Below are positions 11,553-33,300 of a stretch of 38,308 nt of DNA, one piece after another. The first letter of the stretch is position 1. Each line of letters begins with the position of its first letter. Both the position numbers and the translations under genes were made by a program. Under the pieces are notes generated by a model, which did not search any database, was not told where the DNA came from, and was given only the letters and a program-made list of their open reading frames with translations. The stretch is taken from assembly GCA_003602605.1 (NCBI GenBank), contig QQRW01000043.1, positions 6,611 to 44,918 of the forward strand, read 5' to 3'. The stretch is from Candidatus Poseidoniales archaeon (GTDB lineage Archaea; Thermoplasmatota; Poseidoniia; Poseidoniales; Poseidoniaceae).

Positions 11553-12917
11553 ATGGAGGGCGAAACGAGCGTCGAGCGTAGCAAGAGCCCTCCAGAAGAT
11601 CTTCTGAAAGAACTCGCTGCAAATGAGACCTCCTTAATCGCTCTCATCAAAACACTCCTGTCTCCCAAAACAATGCCGCATTTGTTCATGATTGTTCTCA
11701 TGTCAACAGTGCTTTATTTTGTAGCAAACTCAAACAGTGGTGAAGACATAGCAGCGCTTGGTTTCATTTCTCTCTCACTCGGATATGCTGTCACTGCAAT
11801 ATTCTCTACCAATGAGAAAGTGCGAACTTGGATTACTGTTACCGACGACGCAGATGTATCTCAATTCAATGTCATCCAAAAAGCGAAGGCAGGCCTCAAA
11901 ATCTGTGCATTCCCGCTCACAGTTGCCGTTGGGATTGGAGTTCTCATTATGGTTTTGTTTAGCCAGGATTCCGCCACCGACCTTCCAGCTATATTTCCAA
12001 TAAGCTTGGCCTCATTGTTCGTCATTTGGGCGATTGCTCAAGGACGCTCATTCAGTTCATGGGCATCTTCGCTTTCTGCCAAGAATCTGCCCGACAAGCA
12101 AGCCACGACTGGAAACATAGTTACTCTGGCCGTGTCCCAATACATCGTCATCCTGTCCCTCTCACTCTTTGGACTGATTGGATTTGAGTTTCTCTATGAG
12201 AAGGAGTGGGACATCACGAACGCCATTGTGTCGAACGGCGTGTTTCTCGTCATCGCATCTGCCGCCTACGGACTAACCGCATTTTGGACTCGTGATGCTC
12301 GGCGAGTCGCAATGCATGACAAGGCATTGAAGAAGTTCACACGGCGTTGGACGCTCTTTGCTCACATTTTCGCCACTTGGCATCTGCTCACAGTATGGCG
12401 ACAGCTGGTGATGTCTCAGCAAACCATCGAGATATTTATCGAAGAAGTCCTGCTCATGATGTTCACTGTATTTATGGCCATTTGGACACTAACATCCCAG
12501 TCAATTGGTCCAAAGTTCAAAATTCTGTCCACAGAAAACGCCTTGCCTTGGGGCTTGGCGTTCGGATATGCCTATGCCGGAAGCGTCGCTATGCTGGCTA
12601 CAGCGCTTGACGACATAACCTATGTCATGGTCATTGGTCACATCATTGCCTTCCTTACGATCACATGGATGCAACGAAGTATTCTCAACAAGGTGCTCAC
12701 TCAGCATGATGTAGAAGTTGATGTTCAGCGCCGAATTGAAGCACACGCTTCCAAAACTACCGTTACCAATCAACAACCAACGGAGATAAAATCCGCAACA
12801 GAAGAACAAACAGAAGATGTTTGGCAAGAAGACGAAGACGTGCAGTGGAGCGGAGAAGTCGGCAATACCATCGGCGAGGATGTGGAATGGAACAAGGTCA
12901 TCGAATTGGACGACTAA
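11553..12917 (+). CDS. Polytopic membrane protein, unknown function
   Basis: A 454-residue protein with about ten hydrophobic segments from residue ~47 to ~385 (for example TMPHLFMIVLMSTVLYFVAN, FISLSLGYAVTAIF, VSQYIVILSLSLFGLIGFEF). It has a short charged N-terminus and a ~70-residue acidic cytoplasmic tail rich in Glu, Asp and Trp (VWQEDEDVQWSGEV, DVEWNKVIELDD). I recognise no transporter signature. An A/T-rich TATA-like stretch at 11519-11531 and a GAGGAG site precede the ATG, divergent from the Pop5-like gene. Its stop overlaps the convergent FtsZ-like gene by four bases. Confidence 0.8.
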   Translation: MEGETSVERSKSPPEDLLKELAANETSLIALIKTLLSPKTMPHLFMIVLMSTVLYFVANSNSGEDIAALGFISLSLGYAVTAIFSTNEKVRTWITVTDDADVSQFNVIQKAKAGLKICAFPLTVAVGIGVLIMVLFSQDSATDLPAIFPISLASLFVIWAIAQGRSFSSWASSLSAKNLPDKQATTGNIVTLAVSQYIVILSLSLFGLIGFEFLYEKEWDITNAIVSNGVFLVIASAAYGLTAFWTRDARRVAMHDKALKKFTRRWTLFAHIFATWHLLTVWRQLVMSQQTIEIFIEEVLLMMFTVFMAIWTLTSQSIGPKFKILSTENALPWGLAFGYAYAGSVAMLATALDDITYVMVIGHIIAFLTITWMQRSILNKVLTQHDVEVDVQRRIEAHASKTTVTNQQPTEIKSATEEQTEDVWQEDEDVQWSGEVGNTIGEDVEWNKVIELDD

Positions 12918-13831
12918 GACTCACTGCGAATACCGGAAAGTAAGGTTACTACTCGAATTGTGTCTTCGAGATCCTCGCTGACCCGTGCGCCCAAAATAAC
13001 CTGTGCATTTGGGTCCAGTGCCTCAGTAAACATGTTTGCAACTTCATCGACCTGGCCAATCGTCATACCAATTCCGCCTTCGACTTGAATCAAGCAGCCT
13101 TGAGCACCACCCACATCCAATTCAGCAAGTGGCGCCATAAGCGCAGATTGCAGAATACCTTCCGGGTCGTCTGGTCGCCCCGTACCAACCAAGAGTGTCG
13201 CCTCACCTTGCTTTTCGACGATGGCTCTCAAATCCATGAGGTCGAGGTTGATGAGCCCCATGCGCATCAATGTTCGAACCAATCCTTCTACCAAATCTTC
13301 GACCCACTCGGCCCCCATTTGCCATGCTTTGCCGCGTTCACGCGCCTGGCGTGCAAGACGCTCCAAAGACAGACGAACGGTCACATGAGCAATTTTTTCA
13401 AGCCTCTGAAGACCCTCTTGTGCGATTTCTGCACGTGTTTCCTGGACATCAAACGGAAGAGCGGCAACGGCAACCACAATAGCTCCAGACTGCCGTGCTT
13501 GTCGAGCGAATTCATGAGCGGCCCCCGTGCCGGTTCCGCCTCCGAGTCCAGTCAACAACAAGACCAACTCGACAGGCTCGAGTACCGTTCGAGCAAGAGA
13601 TGAGTAACCGCGCATCCTTTGCTCTGCAAGCGGCGGCAGTGCCGCACAACCGACCGAATCGAGGGCATGACCAAGCCGAAGAAGATGCGCTGAACCACTT
13701 TCGGTAAAACTTGCATCATCTGCGTCGACTAAACAAAGATCGGCGTTTCCCTCACAACGAAGGTGGGCGCCTTTGGCCCACGAACAACCAAGTCCACCCA
13801 CACCAGCGATGAGGATGTGAGAGGCTTCCAT
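12914..13831 (-). CDS. FtsZ/tubulin-superfamily GTPase, divergent
   Basis: A 305-residue protein with the tubulin-family GTP-binding signature GLGGGTGTGAA (Gly95-Ala105), an N-terminal nucleotide loop GVGGLGCSW (residues 10-18; FtsZ usually has GVGGAGxN), and a T7 synergy loop NLDLMD (Asn195, Asp197, Asp200) that keeps the three residues used to hydrolyse GTP across a filament interface. It is shorter and more diverged than typical archaeal FtsZ and lacks a long C-terminal tail with an obvious conserved peptide. A role as cell-division or cytoskeletal GTPase is inferred; it may be a second, non-canonical paralogue. It follows the TPR gene by about 50 bases on the same strand. Confidence 0.82.
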   Translation of the reverse strand: MEASHILIAGVGGLGCSWAKGAHLRCEGNADLCLVDADDASFTESGSAHLLRLGHALDSVGCAALPPLAEQRMRGYSSLARTVLEPVELVLLLTGLGGGTGTGAAHEFARQARQSGAIVVAVAALPFDVQETRAEIAQEGLQRLEKIAHVTVRLSLERLARQARERGKAWQMGAEWVEDLVEGLVRTLMRMGLINLDLMDLRAIVEKQGEATLLVGTGRPDDPEGILQSALMAPLAELDVGGAQGCLIQVEGGIGMTIGQVDEVANMFTEALDPNAQVILGARVSEDLEDTIRVVTLLSGIRSES

Positions 13832-14382: not shown

Positions 14383-15222
14383 ATGGGTGAGGCTATGCTA
14401 AGGAACTCATTTTCCACACGTTCCGGAGTAGTGCTCGCGCTAGCGATTTTATTGCTCGTCCCAGGCTTCGCAACATCGCTCCACAGCGGCGTTGGAGGCC
14501 CCCAAAACAATGCCGGAGAAACCATCGACGATGTTGCGAAAGAGGGTTGCCTTTGCCACAATGAAGCTGCCGACAATTCTGTCCAAATCATCCTTGACGA
14601 TGTCCCATATGGATGGATTGGTGGTGAAACATACACCATGACGCTCCAAATTATCGGAGGACCCCCTGCAACAGGAGTCTACACCGCAGGATTCGCAATT
14701 CGAACAACCGATGGGGTCCTCGGCGGAGAAGGCGTCCAAAACTGGGATGATGATGTCACAACACTCACCCACACTGAGGCGAGTGCAGATGAAGCTGAAC
14801 GACTCTGGACCATCACATGGCAAGCGCCTGCATCTGGTTCAGGAGTGGTCAACTTTTGGATCACCGGTAACGCCGTGAACGGCGACCAACTCAACAATGC
14901 AGGCGGCCAAGAAGACAAGTGGAATCAATTGCTCTTTACCCTTCAAGAGGGCAGTGATTCTACAACAGCTCTTGGCACCCGAACACTGTTCGCCGGTGAC
15001 GGAAATGTCAGCCCACCTGAGCCTGCACACAGTGGAGTCGACCTCGAACACATGGGCGCTGAACTGCGAGCACACTGGCTCGGATTACTCGGATTTGGCG
15101 CAGTTATTCTCGTGATTATTTTCGCTGGATTGATGCTGAGATACAGTTTCTCAACATCGTATTCTGGACGAACCAATCAACTCCGATTGCGATACAAACT
15201 CATGCGTAGAGGTGACCAATGA
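14383..15222 (+). CDS. Secreted, C-terminally anchored protein with CxCH motif; first gene of respiratory operon
   Basis: A 279-residue protein with an N-terminal signal segment (VVLALAILLLVPGFATSLHS), an extracytoplasmic beta-rich domain, and one C-terminal membrane segment (LLGFGAVILVIIFAGLMLRY) followed by a basic tail. Just after the signal is GCLCHNE, a Cys-x-Cys-His motif, followed by a domain with GWIGGETYTMTLQI that resembles the reeler/choice-of-anchor V type found in some bacterial secreted proteins. Canonical c-type heme sites are CxxCH, so CxCH would be unusual; it could bind heme or another metal, or be structural. Its place next to Rieske and cytochrome b suggests an electron carrier on the outer face, which is an inference. 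Stop overlaps the next start (ATGA). ATG 14395 is an alternative start. Confidence 0.8.
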   Translation: MGEAMLRNSFSTRSGVVLALAILLLVPGFATSLHSGVGGPQNNAGETIDDVAKEGCLCHNEAADNSVQIILDDVPYGWIGGETYTMTLQIIGGPPATGVYTAGFAIRTTDGVLGGEGVQNWDDDVTTLTHTEASADEAERLWTITWQAPASGSGVVNFWITGNAVNGDQLNNAGGQEDKWNQLLFTLQEGSDSTTALGTRTLFAGDGNVSPPEPAHSGVDLEHMGAELRAHWLGLLGFGAVILVIIFAGLMLRYSFSTSYSGRTNQLRLRYKLMRRGDQ

Positions 15223-15665
15223 TGGACGACACAATCACGACCCTGCTCCGTAAGGTGGCCAGTGGAAAAGTCAGCGTCGAAGACGCCCGCACCGCTTTGG
15301 AAGATGCATCCCTCACAGAGGAGCAAATGCAATCTGCAATCGACCACGGTGTGTTCAATCTTGCAGAATCAGGCACCATTGTCAGCGCCTCTCTCGCCCC
15401 GTCAGGAGGATCAAACCTCATCATGGCTTTCTTCGTATGGGGCATATTTTGGTCTTGCTTCTGGGTATTTTCCATGATTTACGGCCTCGCTAAAGGGTGG
15501 GACCAACAGCAATTGGCCTACCATGTAGCCATGATGCTCGTCACGCTTTGCTTGATGGGTATGGCCTACCTCAAGTTCGTTTTGCCTGACACCATCATCG
15601 TCAAGCACGGTATGAACAAGTTCGTCCCGGAACACCAGAAAGACTGGAAGGAATACAAGTGGTGA
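15219..15665 (+). CDS. Small two-helix membrane protein of the respiratory operon
   Basis: A 148-residue protein I do not recognise. Residues 1-50 are a predicted soluble helical region (LLRKVASGKVSVEDARTALE, SLTEEQMQSAID). Two membrane segments follow: LIMAFFVWGIFWSCFWVFSM and QLAYHVAMMLVTLCLMGMAY, and a charged C-terminus ends DWKEYKW. It is coupled by ATGA to the gene before and followed within 6 bases by the Rieske gene, so it is probably an accessory or small subunit of that complex. Confidence 0.8.
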   Translation: MMDDTITTLLRKVASGKVSVEDARTALEDASLTEEQMQSAIDHGVFNLAESGTIVSASLAPSGGSNLIMAFFVWGIFWSCFWVFSMIYGLAKGWDQQQLAYHVAMMLVTLCLMGMAYLKFVLPDTIIVKHGMNKFVPEHQKDWKEYKW

Positions 15666-15671
15666 TCTAAA

Positions 15672-16517
15672 ATGGCACGTGAATACGACCTCAAACCAGC
15701 ACCGTCTGCAGGTGAAGCAGGTGCTGCATCTATCTCCTCGTCGATCAATCGACGCCAATTCCTCCGCTATGGATTCAATACTGCCACCGGTGTTTTGGCT
15801 GCATCTCTCGGTGTCCTCGGATTTGCCGCAATTCTACTTCCACCCGGAGGCAGCAGCGAAGGTGAACTTGGCGTGAAGTTTTGGGCGAAGGGTCGTGAAG
15901 ACGAGGCTTGGTACGGTGCAAAGCACGAACAATTGATGACTCGCCAAGATTTCGTCGATGAAGCTGCTAAATCCAGCACTGGCACATCAGGTGCTGCAGG
16001 CATTTGGAACGGGGTCCCTGTCGTTGTCACCTACGTATCTCACAGCCAATACGCCGCTACTCCTGCCTCAAACGGCAAGGCTCGATTCCAATATACCGAA
16101 GGAGTTGATGAAACCGGAAAAACCATCGGTCACTTTGAAGACTTGAGCGATGCCGACCCTCGCCTTCTTCCATCCGACAACCTCGTGATGATTTTCGGCC
16201 GATGTACGCACCTTTGTTGCATCCCTGGATGGCAGCTTGTTTCGAACTCGTTCACTGAAGACTCTTGGACACCTGGCGGTGGAGACGACGGCGGCACCAA
16301 ACTCTTCTGCATATGCCACTCTTCACGGTTTGATCCAACGGTTTTGGAAATGAACACTAACCGAAACCGCTCAAACGGTTCCACCTTCAAATATGCGGGA
16401 ATTCGAAAAGCAGGTGGCCCTGCTCCTGTCGGACTCCCAATAATCCCCATTGTATTGAATGGCGATGTAATCGAGGGCATCGTAGACTATCTCGACTGGT
16501 ACACATACTGTGACTGA
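15672..16517 (+). CDS. Rieske [2Fe-2S] protein
   Basis: A 281-residue membrane-anchored Rieske protein, the high-potential electron acceptor from the quinol-oxidation site of cytochrome bc/b6f-type complexes. The N-terminus has a twin-arginine motif (NRRQFLR) followed by one hydrophobic anchor (GVLAASLGVLGFAAILLPP), as expected for Tat export. Cluster box I is CTHLCC (Cys178, His180, Cys183) and box II is CICHSS (Cys213, Cys215, His216): all four ligands and both disulfide cysteines are present. The usual Gly of CTHLGC is replaced by Cys182. The gene lies 11 bases before the cytochrome b gene, which has an AGGTGA ribosome site. Confidence 0.95.
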   Translation: MAREYDLKPAPSAGEAGAASISSSINRRQFLRYGFNTATGVLAASLGVLGFAAILLPPGGSSEGELGVKFWAKGREDEAWYGAKHEQLMTRQDFVDEAAKSSTGTSGAAGIWNGVPVVVTYVSHSQYAATPASNGKARFQYTEGVDETGKTIGHFEDLSDADPRLLPSDNLVMIFGRCTHLCCIPGWQLVSNSFTEDSWTPGGGDDGGTKLFCICHSSRFDPTVLEMNTNRNRSNGSTFKYAGIRKAGGPAPVGLPIIPIVLNGDVIEGIVDYLDWYTYCD

Positions 16518-16528
16518 GGTGAACATAA

Positions 16529-17395
16529 ATGACAACAATGTTTTGGGTTCTCTGGTTTTTCATCGCCTTTGTCGTGGTGCTTGTTGCTTTGACGCTTCGT
16601 CAAGAAAGCAGCGACACACCACGCCGTGAGATTCTACGTGCAGTTGAATCAACAGGTAAAATGGGCTTTGCAGAACGCCTGTTCCTTTGGGTATTCTCGT
16701 GGCTCGACACTCGCTTCCGACTCCAAGACTACTGGAACATGTCAAAAGGTGCATACTACAACATGCACCGTCAAATGCCACTCTCACACGCTGAAAAATA
16801 CAAACTACGTATCATTTGGTACTGGTATCCACTCTACTGCCTAGGTGGAATTTCGTTCCTCTCGTTCATCATTTTGGTCGTTACAGGAACTGTGCTCGGT
16901 ATCTACTATGTTCCTGGTGGAGAAGGAGATCCTTCGCCTGCCTATGCAAGCATGCAATTCATCATGACTGAACTTCCATTCGGTTACATCATTCGTGCCG
17001 TCCACCACTGGTGTACGCACTTCATGGTTGCCAGTGTGTTCCTTCACATGTGCCGTGTCTACTTCACCGGTGCATACCGCAACCCTCGTGAACTCAACTG
17101 GCTAATCGGTGTTGCACTCATGGCCCTGACCATCGTGTTTGGTTACTCAGGTTACCTCTTACCGTGGGATACGCTTGCATACGGTGCAGCGGTTATCGGA
17201 ATCAACTTGGCGAACTCGAGCCCTCTGGTTGGTAAATATATTGCAACCCTACTGTTCAGTGGTTCCTCTTTGACCTCCCGTACCGTCACACGAATGTACT
17301 TTATTCACGTGTTTATCCTGCCAGTTATCGTTACAACTTTGATTATTATTCACTTATTCATTGTCTGGGTACAAGGCATTGCAGAACCACATTGA
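16529..17395 (+). CDS. Cytochrome b, N-terminal half (b6-like)
   Basis: A 288-residue di-heme cytochrome b that carries the four-helix heme core of a quinol oxidoreductase. Heme ligand pairs are His159/His173 in helix B (HHWCTHFM...FLHMCR) and His260/His275 in helix D; the 15-residue spacing in helix D is the b6f-type spacing. GYSGYLLPWDTLAYG is the conserved loop after helix C. The chain ends after helix D, as cytochrome b6 does, and the remaining half is in the next gene. An extra N-terminal membrane segment (FWVLWFFIAFVVVLVALTL) and a ~60-residue linker precede the family domain. Confidence 0.95.
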   Translation: MTTMFWVLWFFIAFVVVLVALTLRQESSDTPRREILRAVESTGKMGFAERLFLWVFSWLDTRFRLQDYWNMSKGAYYNMHRQMPLSHAEKYKLRIIWYWYPLYCLGGISFLSFIILVVTGTVLGIYYVPGGEGDPSPAYASMQFIMTELPFGYIIRAVHHWCTHFMVASVFLHMCRVYFTGAYRNPRELNWLIGVALMALTIVFGYSGYLLPWDTLAYGAAVIGINLANSSPLVGKYIATLLFSGSSLTSRTVTRMYFIHVFILPVIVTTLIIIHLFIVWVQGIAEPH

Positions 17396-17412: not shown

Positions 17413-20241
17413 ATGGGACTAATCGAAAATTTCGGACGTGTTGCTTCTTCATACATGGAGGAGAAAGAACAGTTGCAAGAAGTTGCTGGAAAGCGAACTC
17501 GCACGAGAACCGGTCACGGCTTCTGGCCTCATGAAGTTCTGCGTGATGCAATTCTTCTGTCGTTCATGGCGGCAGTATTGTTGTTCTATGCTTGGTTAAT
17601 TCCACCACCATTGCACGGTGCAGCAGACCCATACGCACAAGCTGGTTTCGTATTCCCAGATTGGTATGTGCTGTTCTCTTACGGATACCTACGATGGGGA
17701 GAATATCTACCACAATTCACAGTCCCAACAGGATTCATCGGTGAAATCGTAGGCCAGCCTGTGTTCCCGTGGAACGCAGCATGGTGGGGCGCTGCACTTA
17801 CTGGAATCCCAGTGAGTATCCTTGCATTGCCACCTTTCCTTGGCGGCCGTGAGAAGCGACCAGTGGAAGACCCGTGGTTCGCTACCGCAGGTGCTGTGTA
17901 CTTGGCACACATTTGGTTCATCTCGGTCTTTTCGATTAACATCTTCTTGGAACTGTATGAAAAGAACCGTTCAGATTACTGTAAACTGGACAGTCACGGC
18001 GATCTCTTGTGCGGTGTCCGTGAACCATGGGTGGCTGAAGCCTTCAACACGATTCCTTGGGTGATGACAGGAGTATTAGCATGGATATGTTTCTATTTCC
18101 TCGCTCGTGGAATGATGGTAAAAGCATGGGGTGCTGGCTTCAAGCCAAGCCATGCTAAGCAGATACTCATTGGAACTCTTTTGATTTCCACTGCAGGAAC
18201 TGTGGCAACCTGGGACACCTACGATGATGGATTCTGGGACCAAGGCGGTTTGCTCACCATCAAGGGCCTTACCCACGACTACTACCCAGAGCTTGAGGCA
18301 ATGCGTACGCAGCCTACTGATGTTCACGTTCACGCAACCAACGAATTCACCGACGAACGTGGATGGAGTGATACAGAAATTGTACCGACAACCGCTTGGC
18401 TTGACTGGTCTATTTACCAACCTGCACGATACATCATCATTGACTTCAACGATGCAAACGGTCACCAAGACGCGGCAAACGGCATCAATGCTGCTGCAGG
18501 CAGTACGACCTTCAACGGTGGAGACGGATGGAGCGATAGCGGAACATTCACTGTTACTGAAGACGCTTCCCTCTTCCCAGACGGACATCACGAATCCATC
18601 GAGACATTAACGACTGACCTCAGCTGTGAGTACCGTTCATCAGAGCGTAAAATCAACGATATCCCCACAGTCTCGATGATTGCAACAACATTGACCGTGA
18701 CCGATAGCAAAGGCAAGGTCGTATCTTCTTTTGACAACTGTGCCGGAGCTACCGTAGAACTACCAGTTGGTACCTATTCCTACGAATACACCGTCGCAGT
18801 GAGTGGTGCTCTTGCTCTCAACAACAGTATTCAAACAGAGACTGCTTTTGAAATCGCATCCTTCCAACCGCTCCTGGTTTGGGGAGAAAGTGCACCTGCA
18901 GCACTTGCAGGTACGACGGTCAATCTGTCAAGTTCTGCCGACATGGCAGCTGGTGGAACAAACTTTGCAGCCATTGAAAACCCGACCTACCACACCAATC
19001 CAAAGGCTCTGGACGCCAAACTCACCTACGCTATGTTCATTCCATGTTTGACCTTTGGTGCAATCGTCTTTGTCGTCTTGCGCTCGATGGGCCGAGGATA
19101 TGAGTTCGAGATGAACAAATGCTACGGCTGTGATCTTTGTGATGATGCATGCCCTGTCCGTTTGTTCAACGGTGGAGACAAACTCAACATCATCTACAAC
19201 TCATGGAACAATGAGGATGACGGAGTCCCACTCTATTCGTGTTTAACCTGTACTGCATGTACCAACGCGTGCCCACAACTGGTCAATTACGACTCTTACG
19301 TGGATATTCGTCGCTCACTCATCGTTGGTGGACCACAAGCTGAAATTGCACACACCGTCCTCCAAGCCGTCCTTGCTGCCGAAGCAGAAGAAGCAGCAGA
19401 CGAAGACTTCGTTGCTGTCGAAGATTATCCTCTTACATCGAACATCGGTTACTATCCTGGATGTGTCGATTACCTCGATCAAGAAATGGTATTCTCGCAT
19501 GTCAACGAGGGTGAAATGAACCTTGGTGATGCTACAACATCCGCATTCACACTCTTCGACGAGATGGAAATGGATGTATCCTACCTTGGCCGTGACTTCC
19601 TCAAGTGTTGTGGTCACGATCAAAAATGGCAAGGCCTCGATGAAGTCTTTGAGAAACTCAAGGCCTACAATCAGAAGAAAATCGAACAGTCAGGAATTGA
19701 TACTCTCGTCTCTTCTTGCGCTGAGTGTTTCCGTACCTTCGCTCGAGACTACGAACTTGAAGGTGTCAAGGTCATGCACACGACCGAATTCCTCATCGAA
19801 AACGGGTTTGATATGAACCTCAAGGCAGAGGAAGAAACGACAGTTACCTACCACGACCCGTGCCGACTCGGACGACAAATGGGAATCTACGAAGAACCTC
19901 GTGAACTCATTGCCGGTGTCGAGGGTGTAGAAATCGTTGAGATGGAACACCACGGTGAAGACGCAATGTGTTGCGGTGTATCCAGTATGATGTCATGCAA
20001 CGAGAATGCCCGTTCACTGCGTGTCACACGCATGGAAGAAATCCGAGCAACTGGAGCAGACACCATGCTTACTTCTTGCCCGAAGTGTGTATCCCACTTC
20101 GAGTGTCTCAAGTTTGAGGGTGACGAACGTTACGAAGACATTGAAATCCTCGATGTTGTATCCTTCCTCGCACGGCAAGTCGAAGCAAAGAAAGCAAAGG
20201 CTGCCACAGAAGTAACCTCAGTCACCGAAGTTGAAGCTTAA
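17413..20241 (+). CDS. Fusion: cytochrome b C-terminal half + extracytoplasmic domain + ferredoxin + two CCG domains (HdrD-like)
   Basis: One uninterrupted 942-residue frame. Residues ~43-267 have five hydrophobic segments (about 43-63, 124-143, 156-179, 213-232, 250-267) and the quinol-site motif PDWY at 82-85 (PEWY in many cytochromes), identifying the subunit IV/cytochrome b C-terminal half missing from the preceding gene. Residues ~268-535 form a beta-rich extracytoplasmic domain. A sixth membrane segment (~538-556) returns the chain to the cytoplasm. Two [4Fe-4S] sites follow (Cys570, 573, 576, 580 and Cys610, 613, 616, 620), then two CCG domains with full cysteine sets (684, 732/733, 769/772 and 817, 853/854, 889/892) as in HdrD, HdrB and GlcF. 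Positive-inside charges fit this topology. The role is inferred: direct electron exchange between a cytoplasmic substrate or partner and the cytochrome b quinone sites. A GGAGG site precedes the ATG. Confidence 0.93.
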   Translation: MGLIENFGRVASSYMEEKEQLQEVAGKRTRTRTGHGFWPHEVLRDAILLSFMAAVLLFYAWLIPPPLHGAADPYAQAGFVFPDWYVLFSYGYLRWGEYLPQFTVPTGFIGEIVGQPVFPWNAAWWGAALTGIPVSILALPPFLGGREKRPVEDPWFATAGAVYLAHIWFISVFSINIFLELYEKNRSDYCKLDSHGDLLCGVREPWVAEAFNTIPWVMTGVLAWICFYFLARGMMVKAWGAGFKPSHAKQILIGTLLISTAGTVATWDTYDDGFWDQGGLLTIKGLTHDYYPELEAMRTQPTDVHVHATNEFTDERGWSDTEIVPTTAWLDWSIYQPARYIIIDFNDANGHQDAANGINAAAGSTTFNGGDGWSDSGTFTVTEDASLFPDGHHESIETLTTDLSCEYRSSERKINDIPTVSMIATTLTVTDSKGKVVSSFDNCAGATVELPVGTYSYEYTVAVSGALALNNSIQTETAFEIASFQPLLVWGESAPAALAGTTVNLSSSADMAAGGTNFAAIENPTYHTNPKALDAKLTYAMFIPCLTFGAIVFVVLRSMGRGYEFEMNKCYGCDLCDDACPVRLFNGGDKLNIIYNSWNNEDDGVPLYSCLTCTACTNACPQLVNYDSYVDIRRSLIVGGPQAEIAHTVLQAVLAAEAEEAADEDFVAVEDYPLTSNIGYYPGCVDYLDQEMVFSHVNEGEMNLGDATTSAFTLFDEMEMDVSYLGRDFLKCCGHDQKWQGLDEVFEKLKAYNQKKIEQSGIDTLVSSCAECFRTFARDYELEGVKVMHTTEFLIENGFDMNLKAEEETTVTYHDPCRLGRQMGIYEEPRELIAGVEGVEIVEMEHHGEDAMCCGVSSMMSCNENARSLRVTRMEEIRATGADTMLTSCPKCVSHFECLKFEGDERYEDIEILDVVSFLARQVEAKKAKAATEVTSVTEVEA

Positions 20242-21056: not shown

Positions 21057-21347
21057 TCAATCGCCTGAGGGTGGCGACTGGCCATCGTCCATTCCTGTGA
21101 TTTCATAGTTGGAAGGGAACAGTGCAATCAAAACTCCCAAAATCAGAGAAGCTAGGCCCCAGCCAAACATTTGGCGAACAAAGAGCATTTCAAGTGCAAT
21201 CACAACGAGCAGCATTCCACCGATGTTTGAAGTCCAAACCAGCGTCTTAAATGTGGATAGAGAGACTCCTGAAGTGCCTTCCTTGCGGTAAGGACCAAAT
21301 TCACCACCGAACCGTTGTGCAGTATCTTGTTTATCATTTTTGGACAT
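21057..21347 (-). CDS. Small two-helix membrane protein, unknown
   Basis: A 96-residue protein with a polar N-terminus (GGEFGPYRKEGTSGVS), two membrane segments (NIGGMLLVVIALEMLFV, GWGLASLILGVLIALFP) and an acidic tail. A GAGGTG ribosome site precedes the ATG. It follows the ferredoxin gene by nine bases on the same strand, so it probably belongs to the same transcript. Its stop abuts the convergent SAP-gene stop. No function is recognised. Confidence 0.7.
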   Translation of the reverse strand: MSKNDKQDTAQRFGGEFGPYRKEGTSGVSLSTFKTLVWTSNIGGMLLVVIALEMLFVRQMFGWGLASLILGVLIALFPSNYEITGMDDGQSPPSGD

Positions 21348-21356
21348 TCAAACACC

Positions 21357-21689
21357 TCATCTGTCTATCATTGTTATCGCATCTGTTGGGCAAGCCAACA
21401 CACAAAGCCGACATCCTGTACAGTCATCACGCAGAATTTTCGCTTTTTGATTCGATTCAACTTTGATAAGTGGACTTAACATGGCGACTTTGTACATCTC
21501 AATTGCATCATCATCACAAACGATTGTACATTGGTCACACCCGATGCAAAGACGTTCTTCAACAAATGCAACTGTTGATTCTCCCCCTTTTATCGATGCA
21601 CGCTGTTCACCCCGCAGACGGTTCAGTGAAGTTCGTATGCGAACCGCCTCTTGCTCACGGCGCTTTCGCAACTCATCGGATGAGGTCAT
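21357..21689 (-). CDS. Two-cluster [4Fe-4S] ferredoxin
   Basis: A 110-residue protein. The C-terminal half carries two cluster sites: Cys48, 51, 54, 58 (CIGCDQCTIVCDDDA, where CP is replaced by CD) and Cys90, 93, 96, 100 (CTGCRLCVLACPTDA). About 28 residues separate the two sites, more than in minimal bacterial ferredoxins. The N-terminal ~38 residues are highly charged and helical (ELRKRREQEAVRIRTSLNRL), possibly a partner-docking segment. It could pass electrons to or from nearby redox proteins such as the CCG fusion; that is inference from proximity. The start overlaps the upstream gene by ATGA and has a GGAGGTTA site. Confidence 0.9.
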   Translation of the reverse strand: MTSSDELRKRREQEAVRIRTSLNRLRGEQRASIKGGESTVAFVEERLCIGCDQCTIVCDDDAIEMYKVAMLSPLIKVESNQKAKILRDDCTGCRLCVLACPTDAITMIDR

Positions 21690-22408
21690 GCATTAACCTC
21701 CAATCGGTCCTTCCCTTCAAACTTGACGACAGCCAAATTAACCAATACATCACCTAAACAGTAGAATGAACCAACCAACAGTGGCGGATTCCAGGCCGTT
21801 AGGCCAGTCCATGGCACCTCACTCGCCCATGTCCAATTTCCGAGAGATGTTCCAACGATTTCCATTGCTAACGCTGCCCATACCATTGCAGCATACAATC
21901 GAGGCTGCGGACCTAAGCGAATGAACACGAGAACAAGTGCAAGGAGAAACACAGCAGAGGTGTCTCCACCGGTCCAAGCTCCATAGAAGACAATAGGAAC
22001 CAGGGGGAGTAGCACGGGAAGTGCCAAATTCTCCTTGAGTTTATCAGCAAAAATCCTTCCAAGGTCGAACAAGAAGTAATGACCGGCAGGAACGAATAAT
22101 GGCATCAGATCTCTCTGATATTCGTAAATTAGCCACACCTCGCTGAAAAAGAGTTCCATTGGTGTGGCAAAAGCAACGACCGTCAGCATTTCGATTCGCT
22201 GCTTACGTTCACCAGAACGGTAGTACCAAGCAAACAAGCCCCAGCACCAAATATTCACGGGCCATTCTGCGTATTCATCGGCCAACAAACCGTTGCATGA
22301 TGTAGCAGAAAACCAAAGCCCGAGGGCGATGGTCCCGATGTACATCCACGCCCTGTTCATGATTGCCGATGAGGTTCTCCTCTTAGCAAGAGCGGGTTCA
22401 ATCACCAC
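21686..22408 (-). CDS. Polytopic membrane protein, unknown
   Basis: About 240 residues from a GTG at 22408 that overlaps the gshA stop by 11 bases; an internal ATG at 22360 (MNRAWMYIG) is an equally good start. Around seven hydrophobic segments are seen, including YIGTIALGLWFSATSCNG, LPVLLPLVPIVFYGAW and TSAVFLLALVLVFIRLG. Charged residues within the membrane region (MELFFSEVWLIYEYQRDL, FLFDLGRIFADKL) suggest an enzyme or transporter, but I recognise no family. Coupled to the ferredoxin by ATGA. Confidence 0.75.
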   Translation of the reverse strand: MVIEPALAKRRTSSAIMNRAWMYIGTIALGLWFSATSCNGLLADEYAEWPVNIWCWGLFAWYYRSGERKQRIEMLTVVAFATPMELFFSEVWLIYEYQRDLMPLFVPAGHYFLFDLGRIFADKLKENLALPVLLPLVPIVFYGAWTGGDTSAVFLLALVLVFIRLGPQPRLYAAMVWAALAMEIVGTSLGNWTWASEVPWTGLTAWNPPLLVGSFYCLGDVLVNLAVVKFEGKDRLEVNA

Positions 22409-23618
22409 TACCGTAGGATAACAATTCTTTACCCATTGCTAACATCGAGAGTTCTGCGACAAGAGCATGCCATCCATGAGCGTGTGCACCGTAGCGGCGA
22501 CCAGATTGAGCAAATGATTCGAAAGTGGCGCTCGGAGAATTGAGATTCTCAATATCCGAACGCTTAGCGTTAATTCTATAGAACCATGAACTTGCTTGTC
22601 CATCGACCAAGTAGACAACGGGTTCAACGGGCGCACCCTCATCCGTCTTCAGTGAGGTAGGAATTCCTTCTTGAATCAAGAAATTATCGACATTTACTCC
22701 GCCTTTTGAATACATGAGCTTCTTCATTTTTCGGTTGGAGAGTTCAAGAAGTTCTGCTCCGCTGTGAACCGCCATGATTCCAAGACCGTACGTACCCCTG
22801 TCGTTCTTGATGAAGGCTACTGGTTCTCGTTCGATCCCTAACTCCTCATACTTCATGCGTATTGAATCAAGGAAGTTATCCACTTCACGGGCGAGGTCCT
22901 TTCTACACGCTTCCTTTTCGAGGCACTTATCGTTTGAAACAAACCAATCCGTCATCAAAAACCAAGCGTCAATGCCAAGGAGTTCTGCAATTTCCTCGAC
23001 GTATTCCTTGAGCACTTCATAATGCTGTGATTTTCGCCTACGGTGCCAGCCCATCGAAGGTGGTGGAGATACAACTTGATTGCCAAAACCTTCAATCAAA
23101 CCTTCTGTGAGGTCATTGTTCAACAGTACAAGATCAGGGGTAGCCCCATGAATCATCAACACTTCTTCTCCATCAATTGTATCTGAAGACACTGGATCCA
23201 GTTTGAGAGGCCCAGAAAGTCCGACTAAATGGCCTAAATTTTCAAAATCCAGCGAACCAACGGTGCACTTGAAGCCACCGAGTAGGAGCAGTTCCTTTAG
23301 TGCAGCTATATTTTCGACGTATCCTTTGTTACGGGTATGCGACTCCGGGTACAAGTGTACCCATTGACAGTCATCGTATTCCCGATTGATGTGATTCTGT
23401 AGCAATTGAGCCAAGTTCGGTTTGTCTTCTTCCGAGACGTTATTGAAACCGGCTGGGAAATGGTTTGCATCAACGACGCCAATCTTCCATCCTGCGTCAC
23501 GAATGTCAACGCTTCCGTATATTGGGATTGGGACTTCTTTACGCTTCGAATCCATCCACTCTGTAATTTTCTGCCGGTTGCTTTCTAGCAATTCTGTTAA
23601 ATTATGAACCAAAGTCAT
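22398..23618 (-). CDS. gshA: Glutamate-cysteine ligase, Acidithiobacillus-type family
   Basis: A 406-residue ATP-dependent ligase of the glutamate-cysteine ligase type first defined in Acidithiobacillus ferrooxidans, recognised from IPIYGSVDIRDAGWKIG, VDANHFPAGFNNV, FIKNDRGTYGLGIMAV and the C-terminal RYGAHAHGWHALVAEL. It would join glutamate and cysteine to gamma-glutamylcysteine, the first step of glutathione synthesis and itself the main thiol in some archaea. No glutathione synthetase is in the window. Its start overlaps the asparagine synthase stop by ATGA, so the two are translated as a coupled pair. Confidence 0.85.
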   Translation of the reverse strand: MTLVHNLTELLESNRQKITEWMDSKRKEVPIPIYGSVDIRDAGWKIGVVDANHFPAGFNNVSEEDKPNLAQLLQNHINREYDDCQWVHLYPESHTRNKGYVENIAALKELLLLGGFKCTVGSLDFENLGHLVGLSGPLKLDPVSSDTIDGEEVLMIHGATPDLVLLNNDLTEGLIEGFGNQVVSPPPSMGWHRRRKSQHYEVLKEYVEEIAELLGIDAWFLMTDWFVSNDKCLEKEACRKDLAREVDNFLDSIRMKYEELGIEREPVAFIKNDRGTYGLGIMAVHSGAELLELSNRKMKKLMYSKGGVNVDNFLIQEGIPTSLKTDEGAPVEPVVYLVDGQASSWFYRINAKRSDIENLNSPSATFESFAQSGRRYGAHAHGWHALVAELSMLAMGKELLSYGSGD

Positions 23619-25399
23619 CCGATCACCTCGTTGAGTAAATCATATGTTGAGCCGTTGGGCTTCCTTCGCCCATCTCCAAGCAAATGCATTGCTTCGAACA
23701 ACCCTAATCCCAGTGCTATTTCAGGTTGAGTGTTCAGTGCCCCTGATATCTTAGGGTATCGCGCAATAATAGCTTCGCATTGAGGTTTGAAATCATTGAG
23801 TAGAGAATCAATCAAACTTGGAGATGTGGCTCTTCCTGCAGGAAGTTTAGGTCGATGAACTATGTTTCGAGGTAATGATGTGAGGGCTGCTGCTGAGCGG
23901 AGGGCTGCCTTTTCATCACCGTTCGATGGGAGGCGCCAATCCATTGGCAACTGATGACTGGCCTGTCGATGGGAGGATGACAGGAACGGGACTCTCACCT
24001 CAAGAGAATGCGCCATAGAATGGCGGTCAACGAGGCGGAGTTGGAAATTTGAAAGTTGACCGTGATCGAGTTCGAATTGGAGGAACTCATCGAGTGAACC
24101 AGTATGGCTCGACCCGGTATGGTCTGAGACGTACCAATGCTCGCCGATTGGAAGAGCCTTGTTCTCAATTTGGCGAGCGAAAGGGTGCGACATTGAGGCT
24201 AAGCGTGCATCGATTAAATCACTGTGCTGGTTTAGATCACGGTATCGGGGATATCCTGCATGCAATTCATCAGCACCTTGCCCACAGAGACCAACTTTGA
24301 CATGTTCTGACATCTTCTCAAAAAGTGGCTGGAAAAACAGGACGGTCACGTCCAAGTCCTCGCCATGCCAAGCCAAATCTGGTAATTTGGTCTCGAAAGA
24401 ATCCTGTTCGAGAATATGCTGGTGATGTTCCAAGTCGAAGGAGGAGGCGACCTCTTCTGCGGCCATCCAATCGGGATTGTCTTCACTTTCAGCAACGGTC
24501 CAACATGCGGGAACCGGTTGCTGCGCCCGTTCAGCGGCTTCATGGGCCACAGCAGCGACCAATGAAGAATCAAGGCCACCTGAAAGTACGATACCAACTG
24601 GCACATCGGACATGAGCCGTTCTGAGACACCAGCGACAAAACTTTCCAACAGCGACTCAGCTTGTGTGTCCGGATTCCATACAAGAGAGGGTTCGACGCG
24701 TTGCCGTTCAATAACTGCAGAGTCATCAAGATAGGGTTGGCCTTCACGATCGAGGCACCAAACTTCCACTGTCCCAGGGCGTACTTGAACCACATCCTTG
24801 AGTAAAGTCGTTCCATCAAGGGGATATTCCCAAGCCAAACGAGCCACAAGAGCCAACTCATCGAGAGCAGGAGTGTAGGATTCATGCGCACGAAGTGCCT
24901 TCGTTTCGCTTGCGAACAGCAGGGAGCCATCAACCTGAGTACGAACCAGCGGCTTGATACCCATGGGATCACGGGCAAGTATGAGTTGGTTCGCTGTAGC
25001 ATCCCAAAGAGCGATTGCATACATCCCATTCAACTGCGACAACCAATGTGCATGCTGCCGAGCTGTGAGTACATCGCTCGAGTTGCTCTTAGCAGAATGA
25101 AGAAGCGACAGAATAGATTCGGAATCACCTCGAGTATTCCATGGATAATGCGGTGATTGACTTCGTAGAGTGCGGTGGTTGTAGATTTCTCCGTTGACAA
25201 TAAGCACTTCACCTGTTGGTCCGAACAAAGGTTGTGCACTGCCAGCAAGGTCGACGATTGCGAGGCGTGTGTGCCCCAATGCTACTGAGTCGTCAGACCA
25301 CACATCACTTCCATCAGGACCTCGATGTGAAAGAAGAGTGTTCATTCGGTGAATCACAGAGGGGTCAGGGCGACCTAACATCCCTCCAAGACCACACAT
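23615..25399 (-). CDS. asnB: Asparagine synthase (glutamine-hydrolysing)
   Basis: A 594-residue two-domain amidotransferase. The N-terminal glutaminase begins with Met-Cys2 (MCGLGGMLG), the nucleophile after Met removal, with SHRGPDG, HTRLAIVDL and VNGEIYNH blocks. The C-terminal ATP-pyrophosphatase domain has SGGLDSSLVAAVAH and GQGADELHAGYPRY. It transfers glutamine amide nitrogen to aspartate, or to a related acid in specialised members. GGAGGTTGA precedes the ATG. Coupling to glutamate-cysteine ligase is notable and may mean a shared role in amide or thiol metabolism. Confidence 0.93.
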   Translation of the reverse strand: MCGLGGMLGRPDPSVIHRMNTLLSHRGPDGSDVWSDDSVALGHTRLAIVDLAGSAQPLFGPTGEVLIVNGEIYNHRTLRSQSPHYPWNTRGDSESILSLLHSAKSNSSDVLTARQHAHWLSQLNGMYAIALWDATANQLILARDPMGIKPLVRTQVDGSLLFASETKALRAHESYTPALDELALVARLAWEYPLDGTTLLKDVVQVRPGTVEVWCLDREGQPYLDDSAVIERQRVEPSLVWNPDTQAESLLESFVAGVSERLMSDVPVGIVLSGGLDSSLVAAVAHEAAERAQQPVPACWTVAESEDNPDWMAAEEVASSFDLEHHQHILEQDSFETKLPDLAWHGEDLDVTVLFFQPLFEKMSEHVKVGLCGQGADELHAGYPRYRDLNQHSDLIDARLASMSHPFARQIENKALPIGEHWYVSDHTGSSHTGSLDEFLQFELDHGQLSNFQLRLVDRHSMAHSLEVRVPFLSSSHRQASHQLPMDWRLPSNGDEKAALRSAAALTSLPRNIVHRPKLPAGRATSPSLIDSLLNDFKPQCEAIIARYPKISGALNTQPEIALGLGLFEAMHLLGDGRRKPNGSTYDLLNEVIG

Positions 25400-30318: not shown

Positions 30319-33300
30319 ATGTCCTCTTACCAAATGAAAGGTGACTCAAATCAACTTCGTGCAGTAATAATGGCAATACTTCTAGTGTTCACAAGCATCA
30401 GTCTCGCCAGTTTCAATGCATCTGCGGTGGGTGTAAACCAAAATGACCTCAACTCAGGCGGCGACTTGCCAGACAACACAAGCGTGAGTATTACCAATTA
30501 TATCTTCACATCATCATACACTGGTTCTGGAGAACTTGACAATGGAGATGACCATGACTTTCTACGAGTTGCGTTAAGCGCAAATCAAGGCCTTTCTGCC
30601 ACCCTTTCATTCCCATCCTCGGTCACATATCCAAACGGAACGACGATCTTTAACGACTTCGACTTAACGTTTTATGACGCAAATCTCACTTGGCTTGGCT
30701 CCTCAAATATTTCCAATCCCGAAACGCTTTCAACCAACAATACCAATCCAACAGGCGGAATGGTTTACATCGACATCGCCCGTTACTCAGGCACTGGAAC
30801 ATGGAACCTTACGCTATCAAAATTCGCAGTCAGTAATGGCACAGGAGGTGGAGGAGGTGGAACTGCCCCCCCAAGTGGATGCGCTGGAAACGGCACACTC
30901 GCTTCGGACATACTCGAACCGAACGACGCTACATCAACCGCAACTACCGCCTACAACCTCCCACTTTCCTGTTCCGGTTTATCCATACACTCATCAACTG
31001 ATGAGGACTTTTTCGAAGTCTATCTGTTAACCGGAGTAACCTACTACGTCAACGTGTCTTTCAACGGTCTAAACGGAGATATTGACACTTCGTGGGATGA
31101 TTCTACCGGAGGTTTTCTGGACAGCTCTACCTCGACAGGAAGTTTGGAATCAATGACTTACACCTCATTCAGTAACCAAACGAGTTTCATTAGAGTGTAC
31201 GGCTATATCGGTTCAACCAACATTTATGACATCGAAATATCAACCGATTTGCCTGGCGGTGGGCAGAGTTATGAGTCCATATCTGTAAGCCAAACGAACT
31301 TAACCTCTTCAACAGTTGAGATCGAAGGAATCACATCAGGTACAAACTATACAATCACTTATTCGAGCGATCAGACCTACATGAACGGTACCACTCTTAC
31401 GAGTACTTATCCGACACTAAATTTCGCTGCAAACGGCACAACACACAACACGACCTTGACCCTACAAAGTCCAATGATGGTCGAATCCGAATACTGCACC
31501 GATGTGACTCTTTCAGACGCTTCCGGATATCTCTCTTTTGACTCTGAATGCACAATGATCGAGATTTTACAATCAACCGTGTTGTCATCAACTTCAGGCA
31601 CTCATTCGGCGACCAATTTGTCAACCAATACCGCTTACACGCTCTGGTGGTTCGTTTTGAACAATGTTGATTTCGAGAATAATTATAACTCGACAAATGA
31701 CGTTAATCTCGCTCTCAATGCTTCCGCCGTTTATCAAGAATATGTCAATTTCACCAGTACTTCAACAACGGAAAGTTGGCTTATCAACTGGAGCGGTATT
31801 ACGACCATGGATGAACACGTCTTGGTAGGAATTCTCTACACTGCAAACTCTGCAATTAACCTGACATCAGGAGACGGTTACATTGGAGTGCATGATGATT
31901 ACTTCATCCCGCAACTCCCCTCCTTGGTCATTGACAGTTTCTCCTCAAGCAGCACCTCAGCAACGAATAACGTCGATGTGAAAGGTTCGGATTTAATTCC
32001 GGGAGACTCCTACAAATCAATCGTACGAATTACCGATGCAGGGGGTGCAAGTATTGCATCAACCTCATTGACGAGTTTCACCGCAACTGCACAAAACATG
32101 AGCCTGCCCACCTTCACGTATTCCACGCCAAACATTTCCGGAGTCTACTGTGCTGAAGCTCTTCTCTATTCAGATACGAATGTCCAACTGATTGGTGACA
32201 GCAACTGCTTCAGCCTTGAGTTTGACGACGATAACGATTCGATAGCAAATGAAATCGACCTTTGTCCAAACACAACTACTGGTGCGATCGTCGATGGCGA
32301 TGGTTGCGCATTGGCACAAAAAGACACAGATAGCGACGGCTACAATGATGAAATCGATGCATTCCCGAACGATTCAACTCAATACTCCGACATGGACGGG
32401 GATGGCTATGGAGATAATCCAGCGGGTAATTCACCGGATACATTCCCGAACGATTCGTCGCAATGGTCCGACTATGACGCCGATGGATACGGAGACAACC
32501 AAAACGGCAACAATTCCGATGCATTCCCATACGATCCAACACAGTGGTCCGATTCTGATGGCGATGGCTACGGTGACAATGCTTCGGGGAATTATGCCGA
32601 CGAGTATCCAACTGACAGCACACAATGGGTAGATCAAGATGGAGATGGGTACGGTGACAATCCGAACGGAACAAACGGCGACCAATTCCCGACAGACAGT
32701 ACACAATGGTCCGATCAAGACGGAGACGGATACGGAGACAACCCTACTGGAAATTCGCCTGACGCATTCCCAACCGACAGTACACAATGGGCTGACCAAG
32801 ATGGAGATGGGTACGGAGACAATCCTACTGGTAACAACGGAGATGCATTCCCTACGGACGGAACCCAGTGGGCAGATTTGGATTCCGACGGATATGGAGA
32901 CAACCAAGCAGGCAATGACCCTGACGCATTCCCTACGGACGGAACCCAGTGGTCCGATGAAGATGGAGATGGCTATGGAGACAACCAAAACGGTAACGCT
33001 GCAGACAAATTCCCAACCGAACCAACGCAATGGTTCGATGCCGATGGTGACGGATACGGAGACAATGCCAACGGCGTTTCACCCGACCAATGTTTGGACA
33101 CACCAGCTGGACAATCTGTCGATTTGAACGGCTGCTCTGAACAACAGAAAGACGATGATCTCGATGGCGTTTCCAACAATGCAGATGCATGCCCTTCTAC
33201 TCCACCCGGTGAAACGGTCGACTCGACGGGATGTTCTGGCTCTCAAGAAGACGCTGATAACGATGGGGTCATGGATTTGTTCGACGCATGCCCACTTACC

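Follow-up and report, generated by a model that had tools for sequence, protein, structure and literature searches.

A cytochrome b half with a covalent Hdr-like iron-sulfur arm in Candidatus Poseidoniales: a possible ferredoxin/flavodoxin entry into complex III

For archaea that lack the NADH-binding part of complex I, it is an open question by which route ferredoxin electrons enter aerobic respiration, and direct electron transfer from ferredoxin to the inner site of complexes of the cytochrome b6f type has long been debated. The former question has been raised for Candidatus Angelarchaeales, members of the Thermoplasmata, for which a brief report of neighboring genes places hdrD-like and rnfB-like genes near complex III and proposes ferredoxin entry at this point (PMC9038741). 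In cytochrome b6f, heme cn, which is contacted by Arg207, has been postulated to hand ferredoxin electrons to plastoquinone (PMC9342900). The mycobacterial EtfD (Rv0338c type, structure 9ojn) carries two cubane clusters and two CCG domains on a membrane anchor, and the proposed electron flow leads from the CCG clusters via the cubane clusters and heme b to quinone; a threonine replaces one CCG cysteine, resulting in a linear [3Fe-4S] cluster, and a histidine completes the noncubane cluster, whereas Hdr, which is catalytic, retains both cysteines (PMC13083937). The unusual Rieske/cytochrome b complex of Methanoperedens is likewise an archaeal complex III with extra subunits; these include c-type cytochromes, and HdrDE is described there as a separate complex (PMC4683180). 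Here we analyzed a stretch of 38,308 nucleotides from a Candidatus Poseidoniales archaeon (assembly GCA_003602605.1, contig QQRW01000043.1, positions 6,611 to 44,918; hereafter the window), in which the C-terminal half of a cytochrome b is joined in one chain to two ferredoxin-type sites and two CCG domains.

The chain, its ligands, its operon and a conserved ferredoxin/flavodoxin partner gene were observed directly. On balance we favor the reading that the chain supplies the C-terminal cytochrome b half of a Rieske/cytochrome b (complex III) assembly, and that an iron-sulfur (Fe-S) arm built into it on the cytoplasmic side would bring electrons of ferredoxin or flavodoxin to the inner quinone site. 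That complex III would thereby also be a ferredoxin/flavodoxin:quinone oxidoreductase, with a covalent Hdr-type arm that uses a heme-cn-like cofactor to feed the inner quinone site, is a more tentative proposal to which we give slightly less than even likelihood. The fusion protein comprises the following parts, all on the forward strand:

17413-20241, forward: whole fusion protein, 942 amino acids in a single open frame; cytochrome b C-terminal half, insert, two [4Fe-4S] sites and two CCG domains
17413-17958, forward: cytochrome b C-terminal half, residues 1-182, with PDWY at 82-85 and three membrane helices (hydropathy, AlphaFold2, relatives P0002 and P0003)
17959-19008, forward: insert, residues ~183-532, a membrane hairpin and an extracytoplasmic beta-rich domain; not in P0002 and P0003
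19009-19080, forward: last membrane helix, aligning with the final helix of the P0002 and P0003 cytochrome b halves
19108-19278, forward: two [4Fe-4S] ferredoxin-type sites, residues 566-622 (Pfam; cysteines in 39/39 rows), with C570/573/576/580 and C610/613/616/620
19450-19752, forward: first CCG domain (CCG1), with C684, C732, C733, C769 and C772, and E771 at the position of the EtfD histidine (HdrB/EtfD fold)
19843-20100, forward: second CCG domain, with C817, C853, C854, C889 and C892 (Pfam, HdrB/EtfD fold)

Both CCG domains (E 1.2e-22) and the ferredoxin-type 4Fe-4S domain at residues 566-622 exceeded the curated Pfam cut-offs. The frame, the PDWY motif, the two ferredoxin sites and the two complete CCG domains noticed earlier from the DNA are confirmed. 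Every cluster cysteine is kept in all 39 covering rows of the alignment, its own row included, with the exception of C733 (37/39), and E771 occurs in 39/39. Pfam did not call Cytochrom_B_C in the fusion protein itself; this family is matched by P0002 and P0003, two fusions from outside Poseidoniales with 34-41% identity. A simple hydropathy scan gave six membrane helices (residues 46-64, 127-145, 161-179, 213-231, 251-269 and 538-556, the fifth borderline), and helices are present at all six positions in an AlphaFold2 model (mean pLDDT 68.9, pTM 0.44, 40-row alignment) of good confidence over the CCG region and the insert and poor confidence over residues 24-84 and 560-648. Loop charges place PDWY outside and the Fe-S part inside, in agreement with the topology suggested before. 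In cytochromes b the last helix ends at the inner membrane face; the Fe-S arm should therefore be cytoplasmic, as the charges also predict. The extracytoplasmic domain and the sixth helix described in the earlier note were recovered with one correction: this domain and helices 4-5 together form an insert (residues ~183-532) that P0002 and P0003 do not have. Because of this absence the Fe-S arm hangs on the last cytochrome b helix, and the fusion without its insert is a four-helix cytochrome b C-terminal half carrying the arm. Foldseek matched the insert weakly to a GOLD-domain fold (E 8.3e-4), and the best matches of the whole model include EtfD, a LutA model and several HdrB chains.

The fusion is not an assembly join. 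An open frame of 925-988 amino acids spans the match in 51 of the 59 Candidatus Poseidoniales genomes (own included); in the other eight it is partial, split (in one contig in G039, across two in G040) or not in the assembly (G011, G014). Of the 51 long frames, nine were flagged for a stop. On re-reading, six of the nine genomes showed a single frame almost up to where the match ends, G036 and G046 lay outside the re-read set, and the frame of G030 is truly broken by a TGA into two open reading frames (ORFs). Among the named loci (L032-L111, the best 80 of 243 matching stretches), 77 contain the chain in a single frame that begins with residue 1; a contig end truncates two others, and L053 is split. 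One carrier genome, G073, consists of a single contig. Neither a frameshift nor a join was found around 18900-19200, where the earlier note had advised looking for one. Across 133 fusion ORFs of more than 850 amino acids (111 distinct), PDWY and two CxxCxxCxxxCP motifs are present without exception (133/133 each), and two CCG domains in 132.

A phylum search with the first 300 residues matched 96 of 292 genomes, 17 of them outside Poseidoniales (15 of the 17 were read first, G307 was added later and G103 left out). Three architectures occur there. The first is a fusion without the insert, in G084 (789 amino acids) and G093 (606 amino acids); G098 is cut by a contig end. In the second, found in the marine group III (MGIII)-like family f3 of the same class as the window, the two ferredoxin sites are on the cytochrome b half and a separate gene, adjoining in 17/18 loci, encodes the CCG pair; the exception starts at a contig edge. 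In the third, seen in lineages such as G080, G059 and G089, there is a similar cytochrome b pair, but no neighboring CCG gene was called. Absence of CCG in GC-rich loci such as L150-L152, L154 and L155 depends on a crude gene caller that mis-frames them, and has second support, from a separate search, for G071, G080 and G059 only. In a tree of the N-terminal cytochrome b half, the five CCG-less lineages included form one clade (support 0.998, the gap-rich row L151 left out). Fusion is the rule within Poseidoniales, so that homologues are not consistently two separate genes, the finding that the earlier note would have taken as a refutation, although in family f3 the CCG part is a separate neighbor.

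The fusion gene is the last of an ordered set of genes on the forward strand:

14383-15222, forward: membrane-anchored Reelin-N-like protein with an invariant CxCH (ligand alignment, fold match)
15219-15665, forward: DUF7318-like membrane protein of the operon (E 0.0015, below cut-off; conserved order)
15672-16517, forward: Rieske protein, with C178, H180, C183, C213, C215 and H216 conserved (TIGR01416 E 5.6e-10, below cut-off)
16529-17395, forward: cytochrome b6-type N-terminal half, with bis-heme histidines 159/173 and 260/275 and C104 aligned with b6 residue 35 (PF00033 E 5e-42)

All four bis-heme histidines are kept in 34/34 Poseidoniales and 12/12 outgroup rows, with spacings of 14 and 15, which are of the b6 type. 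The Rieske protein had no Pfam match and stayed below the curated cut-off of TIGR01416, and its Cys/His ligands are conserved in 33/33 rows. The association of the fusion with Rieske/cytochrome b genes and its domain order had been read from the window alone, and both are supported. Where enough upstream flank is available, the N-terminal half precedes the fusion in 69/70 named loci of family f1 and 20/20 of family f2, and a Rieske gene lies ahead of it in 66/67 and 20/20, respectively. The single miss in gene order is the split-fusion locus L053. The locus shares the split cytochrome b, the bis-heme histidines and a cysteine at position 35 with cytochrome b6f, but differs from it by the Fe-S arm on the C-terminal half and by having no operon protein with CxxCH. 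Neither the five operon proteins of the window nor, with crude gene calls, the genes listed for 20 related loci (L142-L161) contain this motif of cytochromes c1 and f.

The first operon position is taken by the CxCH protein. It has a Reelin-N-like fold, CxCH is present in 33/33 Poseidoniales and 6/6 outgroup sequences, and His130 in 32/33 and 5/6. It is a possible outer electron acceptor and could take the place of cytochrome c1, using an unusual heme or metal site. Immediately ahead of the operon, an FtsZ/tubulin-family gene (12914-13831, reverse) recurs in 61/62 named f1 and 19/19 f2 loci with enough flank. Among the related loci, bacterial Ig-like (Big_5) domains stand ahead of a fused cytochrome b N-terminal half in L144 (788-3610, four stretches) and L142 (6089-7975), and in L143 (3497-5233, reverse) a cytochrome b C-terminal half is joined to a laminin-G/ConA-like domain in place of the Fe-S modules.

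A conserved cytoplasmic partner gene, which the earlier note had suggested looking for, was found downstream of the fusion:

21357-21689, reverse: RnfB-type 2x[4Fe-4S] ferredoxin, conserved partner of the fusion (RnfB match, neighborhood conservation)
21057-21347, reverse: small protein traveling with the ferredoxin gene (gene neighborhood)

The partner resembles the 2[4Fe-4S] part of RnfB (E 4.7e-12, 45.9 bits), below the curated cut-off of 68.7. The remainder of Rnf has been reported missing in marine group II (MGII) archaea, the group of Poseidoniales (PMC6336850). In family f2 the ferredoxin gene follows on the same strand in 21/21 loci, 0-346 bp downstream as measured between stop-bounded frames; in family f1 it lies within 3.5 kb in 62/67 named loci with enough flank and in 2/3 further loci. 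It is also located directly behind the fusion of the distant G084. Overall, an RnfB-type ferredoxin gene was detected in 13 of 17 genomes tested, and it was not found in G080 and G059, both of the cytochrome b carriers without CCG among these 17. Family f3 has a larger partner gene directly downstream in 14/18 loci, the four misses being contig ends. Its C-terminal part is the RnfB-type unit, and its N-terminus is a zinc-type ferredoxin in eight loci (P0007 against 1xer, a Sulfolobus ferredoxin, E 9.3e-28) and a flavodoxin in six, two of which come from one genome, G318 (PF00258, Flavodoxin_1, in 6/6 scanned, E 6.3e-20 or better). Since ferredoxin and flavodoxin stand in for each other as carriers in many organisms, this carrier swap is the strongest single pointer to the partner of the arm. 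The earlier note had suggested that a cytoplasmic dehydrogenase or disulfide could be wired into the complex; the idea of a cytoplasmic redox partner is supported, but the conserved one is of the ferredoxin/flavodoxin type instead. Behind the CCG end of the G098 fusion comes an HdrA-like protein whose own end is VhuD-like, and in G093 the start of a similar HdrA-like gene is visible at the contig end. A few genes behind the HdrA-like gene of G098, an LdhH-like lactate-oxidation iron-sulfur protein is encoded (L187, 5071-7209).

The metabolic context was also analyzed. A 2-oxoacid:ferredoxin oxidoreductase domain is present in 8/8 Poseidoniales genomes tested, and NuoF was not found in 7/8 Poseidoniales nor in 4/4 f3 genomes tested (11/12 together). 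The negative result for NuoF contrasts with the "canonical NADH dehydrogenases" stated for MGII (PMC6336850). According to the proposed mechanism, ferredoxin or flavodoxin reduced in archaeal 2-oxoacid oxidation would dock on the RnfB-type partner. Electrons would pass from the CCG clusters to the two cubane clusters, a path for which the flow proposed for EtfD is a precedent (PMC13083937), and leave the arm at the inner membrane face. They would enter the core of cytochrome b close to heme bH, probably through a heme attached to C104 as in cytochrome b6f. Quinone would be reduced at the inner (Qi) site, and the quinol would be re-oxidized at the outer PDWY/Rieske site by the same kind of complex, moving protons. 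A single machine would thus combine a ferredoxin:quinone reductase with a quinol oxidase, as the respiratory counterpart of the route from ferredoxin to b6f proposed for cyclic photosynthetic electron flow.

The entry point is suggested by C104 of the N-terminal half, whose counterpart in the alignment with cytochrome b6 is Cys35, the covalent ligand of heme cn; a literature search for heme cn together with Cys35 returned no paper. C104 is present in 34/34 sampled Poseidoniales rows as well as in L142, L144 and L146, and the position is occupied by Ser, Ala or Thr in the five readable CCG-less rows.

The CCG site was compared with its best solved relative, mycobacterial EtfD (phmmer E 9.7e-23; fold E 2.6e-13), with which the window protein shares the CCG fold and the cluster set on a membrane anchor. 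It differs in that the anchor is a cytochrome b C-terminal half in a Rieske operon. The site is not EtfD-like, because Cys733 and Glu771 stand at the places of the EtfD threonine and histidine. With HdrDE and HdrBC the protein shares two CCG domains with full cysteine sets, a ferredoxin domain and an HdrB-like fold, but the fusion chain has no HdrE-type anchor, and the curated HdrB model TIGR03288 gave 21.6 bits against a cut-off of 345. The closest curated model is TfrB (E 2.6e-32, below cut-off). Within family f3, genus g20 keeps both CCG and C104 (4/4 loci), the single locus of g138 has CSG with C104, and genus g21 has CSG in 13/13 loci read; one Poseidoniales fusion also has CSG in CCG1. 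The two-cluster disulfide site is thus not conserved while the ferredoxin link is, which favors a putative electron wire over a disulfide site, a disulfide role being possible where both cysteines remain. A tie between loss of the ferredoxin oxidoreductase and the C104S/CSG state of g21, suggested by the first three genomes, was dropped after a wider count in which 4/14 g21 genomes had the domain.

The same parts list would also serve the reverse flow, with a bifurcating oxidation of quinol at the Rieske site whose low-potential electron exits via heme bH and the arm to flavodoxin, ferredoxin or another cytoplasmic acceptor, aided by the proton motive force. The flavodoxin domain in 6/14 MGIII-like partner genes and the HdrA/VhuD-like flavoprotein behind the G098 fusion would allow acceptors milder than ferredoxin. 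However, ferredoxin potentials lie far below those of quinols, and the distribution of the ferredoxin-reducing enzyme and of NuoF in Poseidoniales makes ferredoxin oxidation the more obvious need, so that we regard this direction as unlikely. We give similarly little weight to the idea that the paired CCG domains constitute a disulfide site of the Hdr type, coupling a thiol/disulfide pair of the cytoplasm to quinone, with ferredoxin as co-substrate or regulator. This would explain the adjacent cysteines in both CCG domains (132/133 ORFs), the replacement of the EtfD histidine by E771, as expected of Hdr but not of EtfD (PMC13083937), the similarity to TfrB, closest among the curated models but below cut-off, and the nearby gene for GshA (glutamate-cysteine ligase, 22398-23618). 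Yet operon and partner persist in the g21, g138 and Poseidoniales loci with CSG in CCG1. A link via GshA was rejected: its gene usually adjoins in f1 but is near in only 7/21 f2 loci and was not seen in the first four MGIII-like loci, which looks like local synteny. In the window, this glutamate-cysteine ligase gene (TIGR02049 above cut-off) overlaps an asparagine-synthase-like gene (22398-25399, reverse), a possible thiol pathway.

The relationship to EtfD would also be explained if the arm took electrons from an electron-transfer flavoprotein (ETF) or a substrate dehydrogenase, like EtfD, GlpC and GlcF. But an EtfD-like paralogue reading CSG and CPHC is encoded in the same genome (G000, contig C16), and such paralogues adjoin ETF genes in four MGIII-like genomes, so this paralogue probably serves ETF. 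ETF was rejected as the main donor, its place being filled by the paralogue, and no dehydrogenase gene was seen repeatedly next to the fusion in the loci compared, many flanking frames of which are unannotated; we consider this explanation improbable. The arm might finally be structural or regulatory and the complex an ordinary quinol oxidase, as the similar cytochrome b pairs of G080, G059 and G089 could suggest. This is the least probable explanation, since every row, even at ~34-41% identity, keeps the whole set of cluster ligands apart from C733, which is hard to explain without electron transfer.

Several observations weigh against entry of ferredoxin or flavodoxin electrons through the arm. 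CCG1 retains its two adjacent cysteines, a feature of disulfide-cleaving Hdr but not of EtfD, so that a catalytic role is possible. C104 is not needed everywhere, because a serine replaces it in 12/12 g21 loci containing the b gene, and Arg207 of b6f aligns with Trp280, so the heme cn contact residue is not kept. Because the CCG-less lineages form a single clade, one phylogenetic event may account for the correlation of C104, H160 and H164 with the CCG state, which is not independent evidence. The RnfB-type ferredoxin was not found in G093 and G098, both with CCG fusions, among the 17 genomes tested. In family f1 its gene is on the opposite strand in 57/62 loci and not in the neighborhood in 5/67, and in G073 it is ~14 kb off. 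The ferredoxin-oxidoreductase domain occurs in only 7/21 MGIII-like genomes, many of them incomplete. In addition, the ferredoxin part of the model (residues 560-648) is of such low confidence that distances and assembly cannot be read off.

Elsewhere in the window, a secreted-looking protein of 1357 amino acids with many D-rich DGDGYGDN-type repeats, read by eye, is encoded at 30319-34392.

The earlier note knew of no described complex of this kind. The fusion, its MGII occurrence and the carrier swap were not described in the literature searched, which covered few subscription journals and for which flavodoxin was not a search word. However, the concept of ferredoxin entry is already in print for Angelarchaeales, whose hdrD-like and rnfB-like genes by complex III provide the same three ingredients with the same proposed role (PMC9038741); there these are neighboring genes, in Poseidoniales one fused chain. 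Beyond this concept, the present analysis contributes the fusion with its distribution and ligand tests, the exchange of carriers, and a cysteine of the heme cn type. With this finding, the "MGII specific" complex III (PMC6336850) of these abundant marine archaea takes on a concrete meaning. A natural chain that covalently joins the feeding of ferredoxin electrons into respiration with their direct entry into b6f-type complexes makes each of these questions testable. If the proposed reading is true, a wired-in respiratory equivalent of the disputed route from ferredoxin to b6f would exist in one of the most abundant archaeal groups of the ocean.

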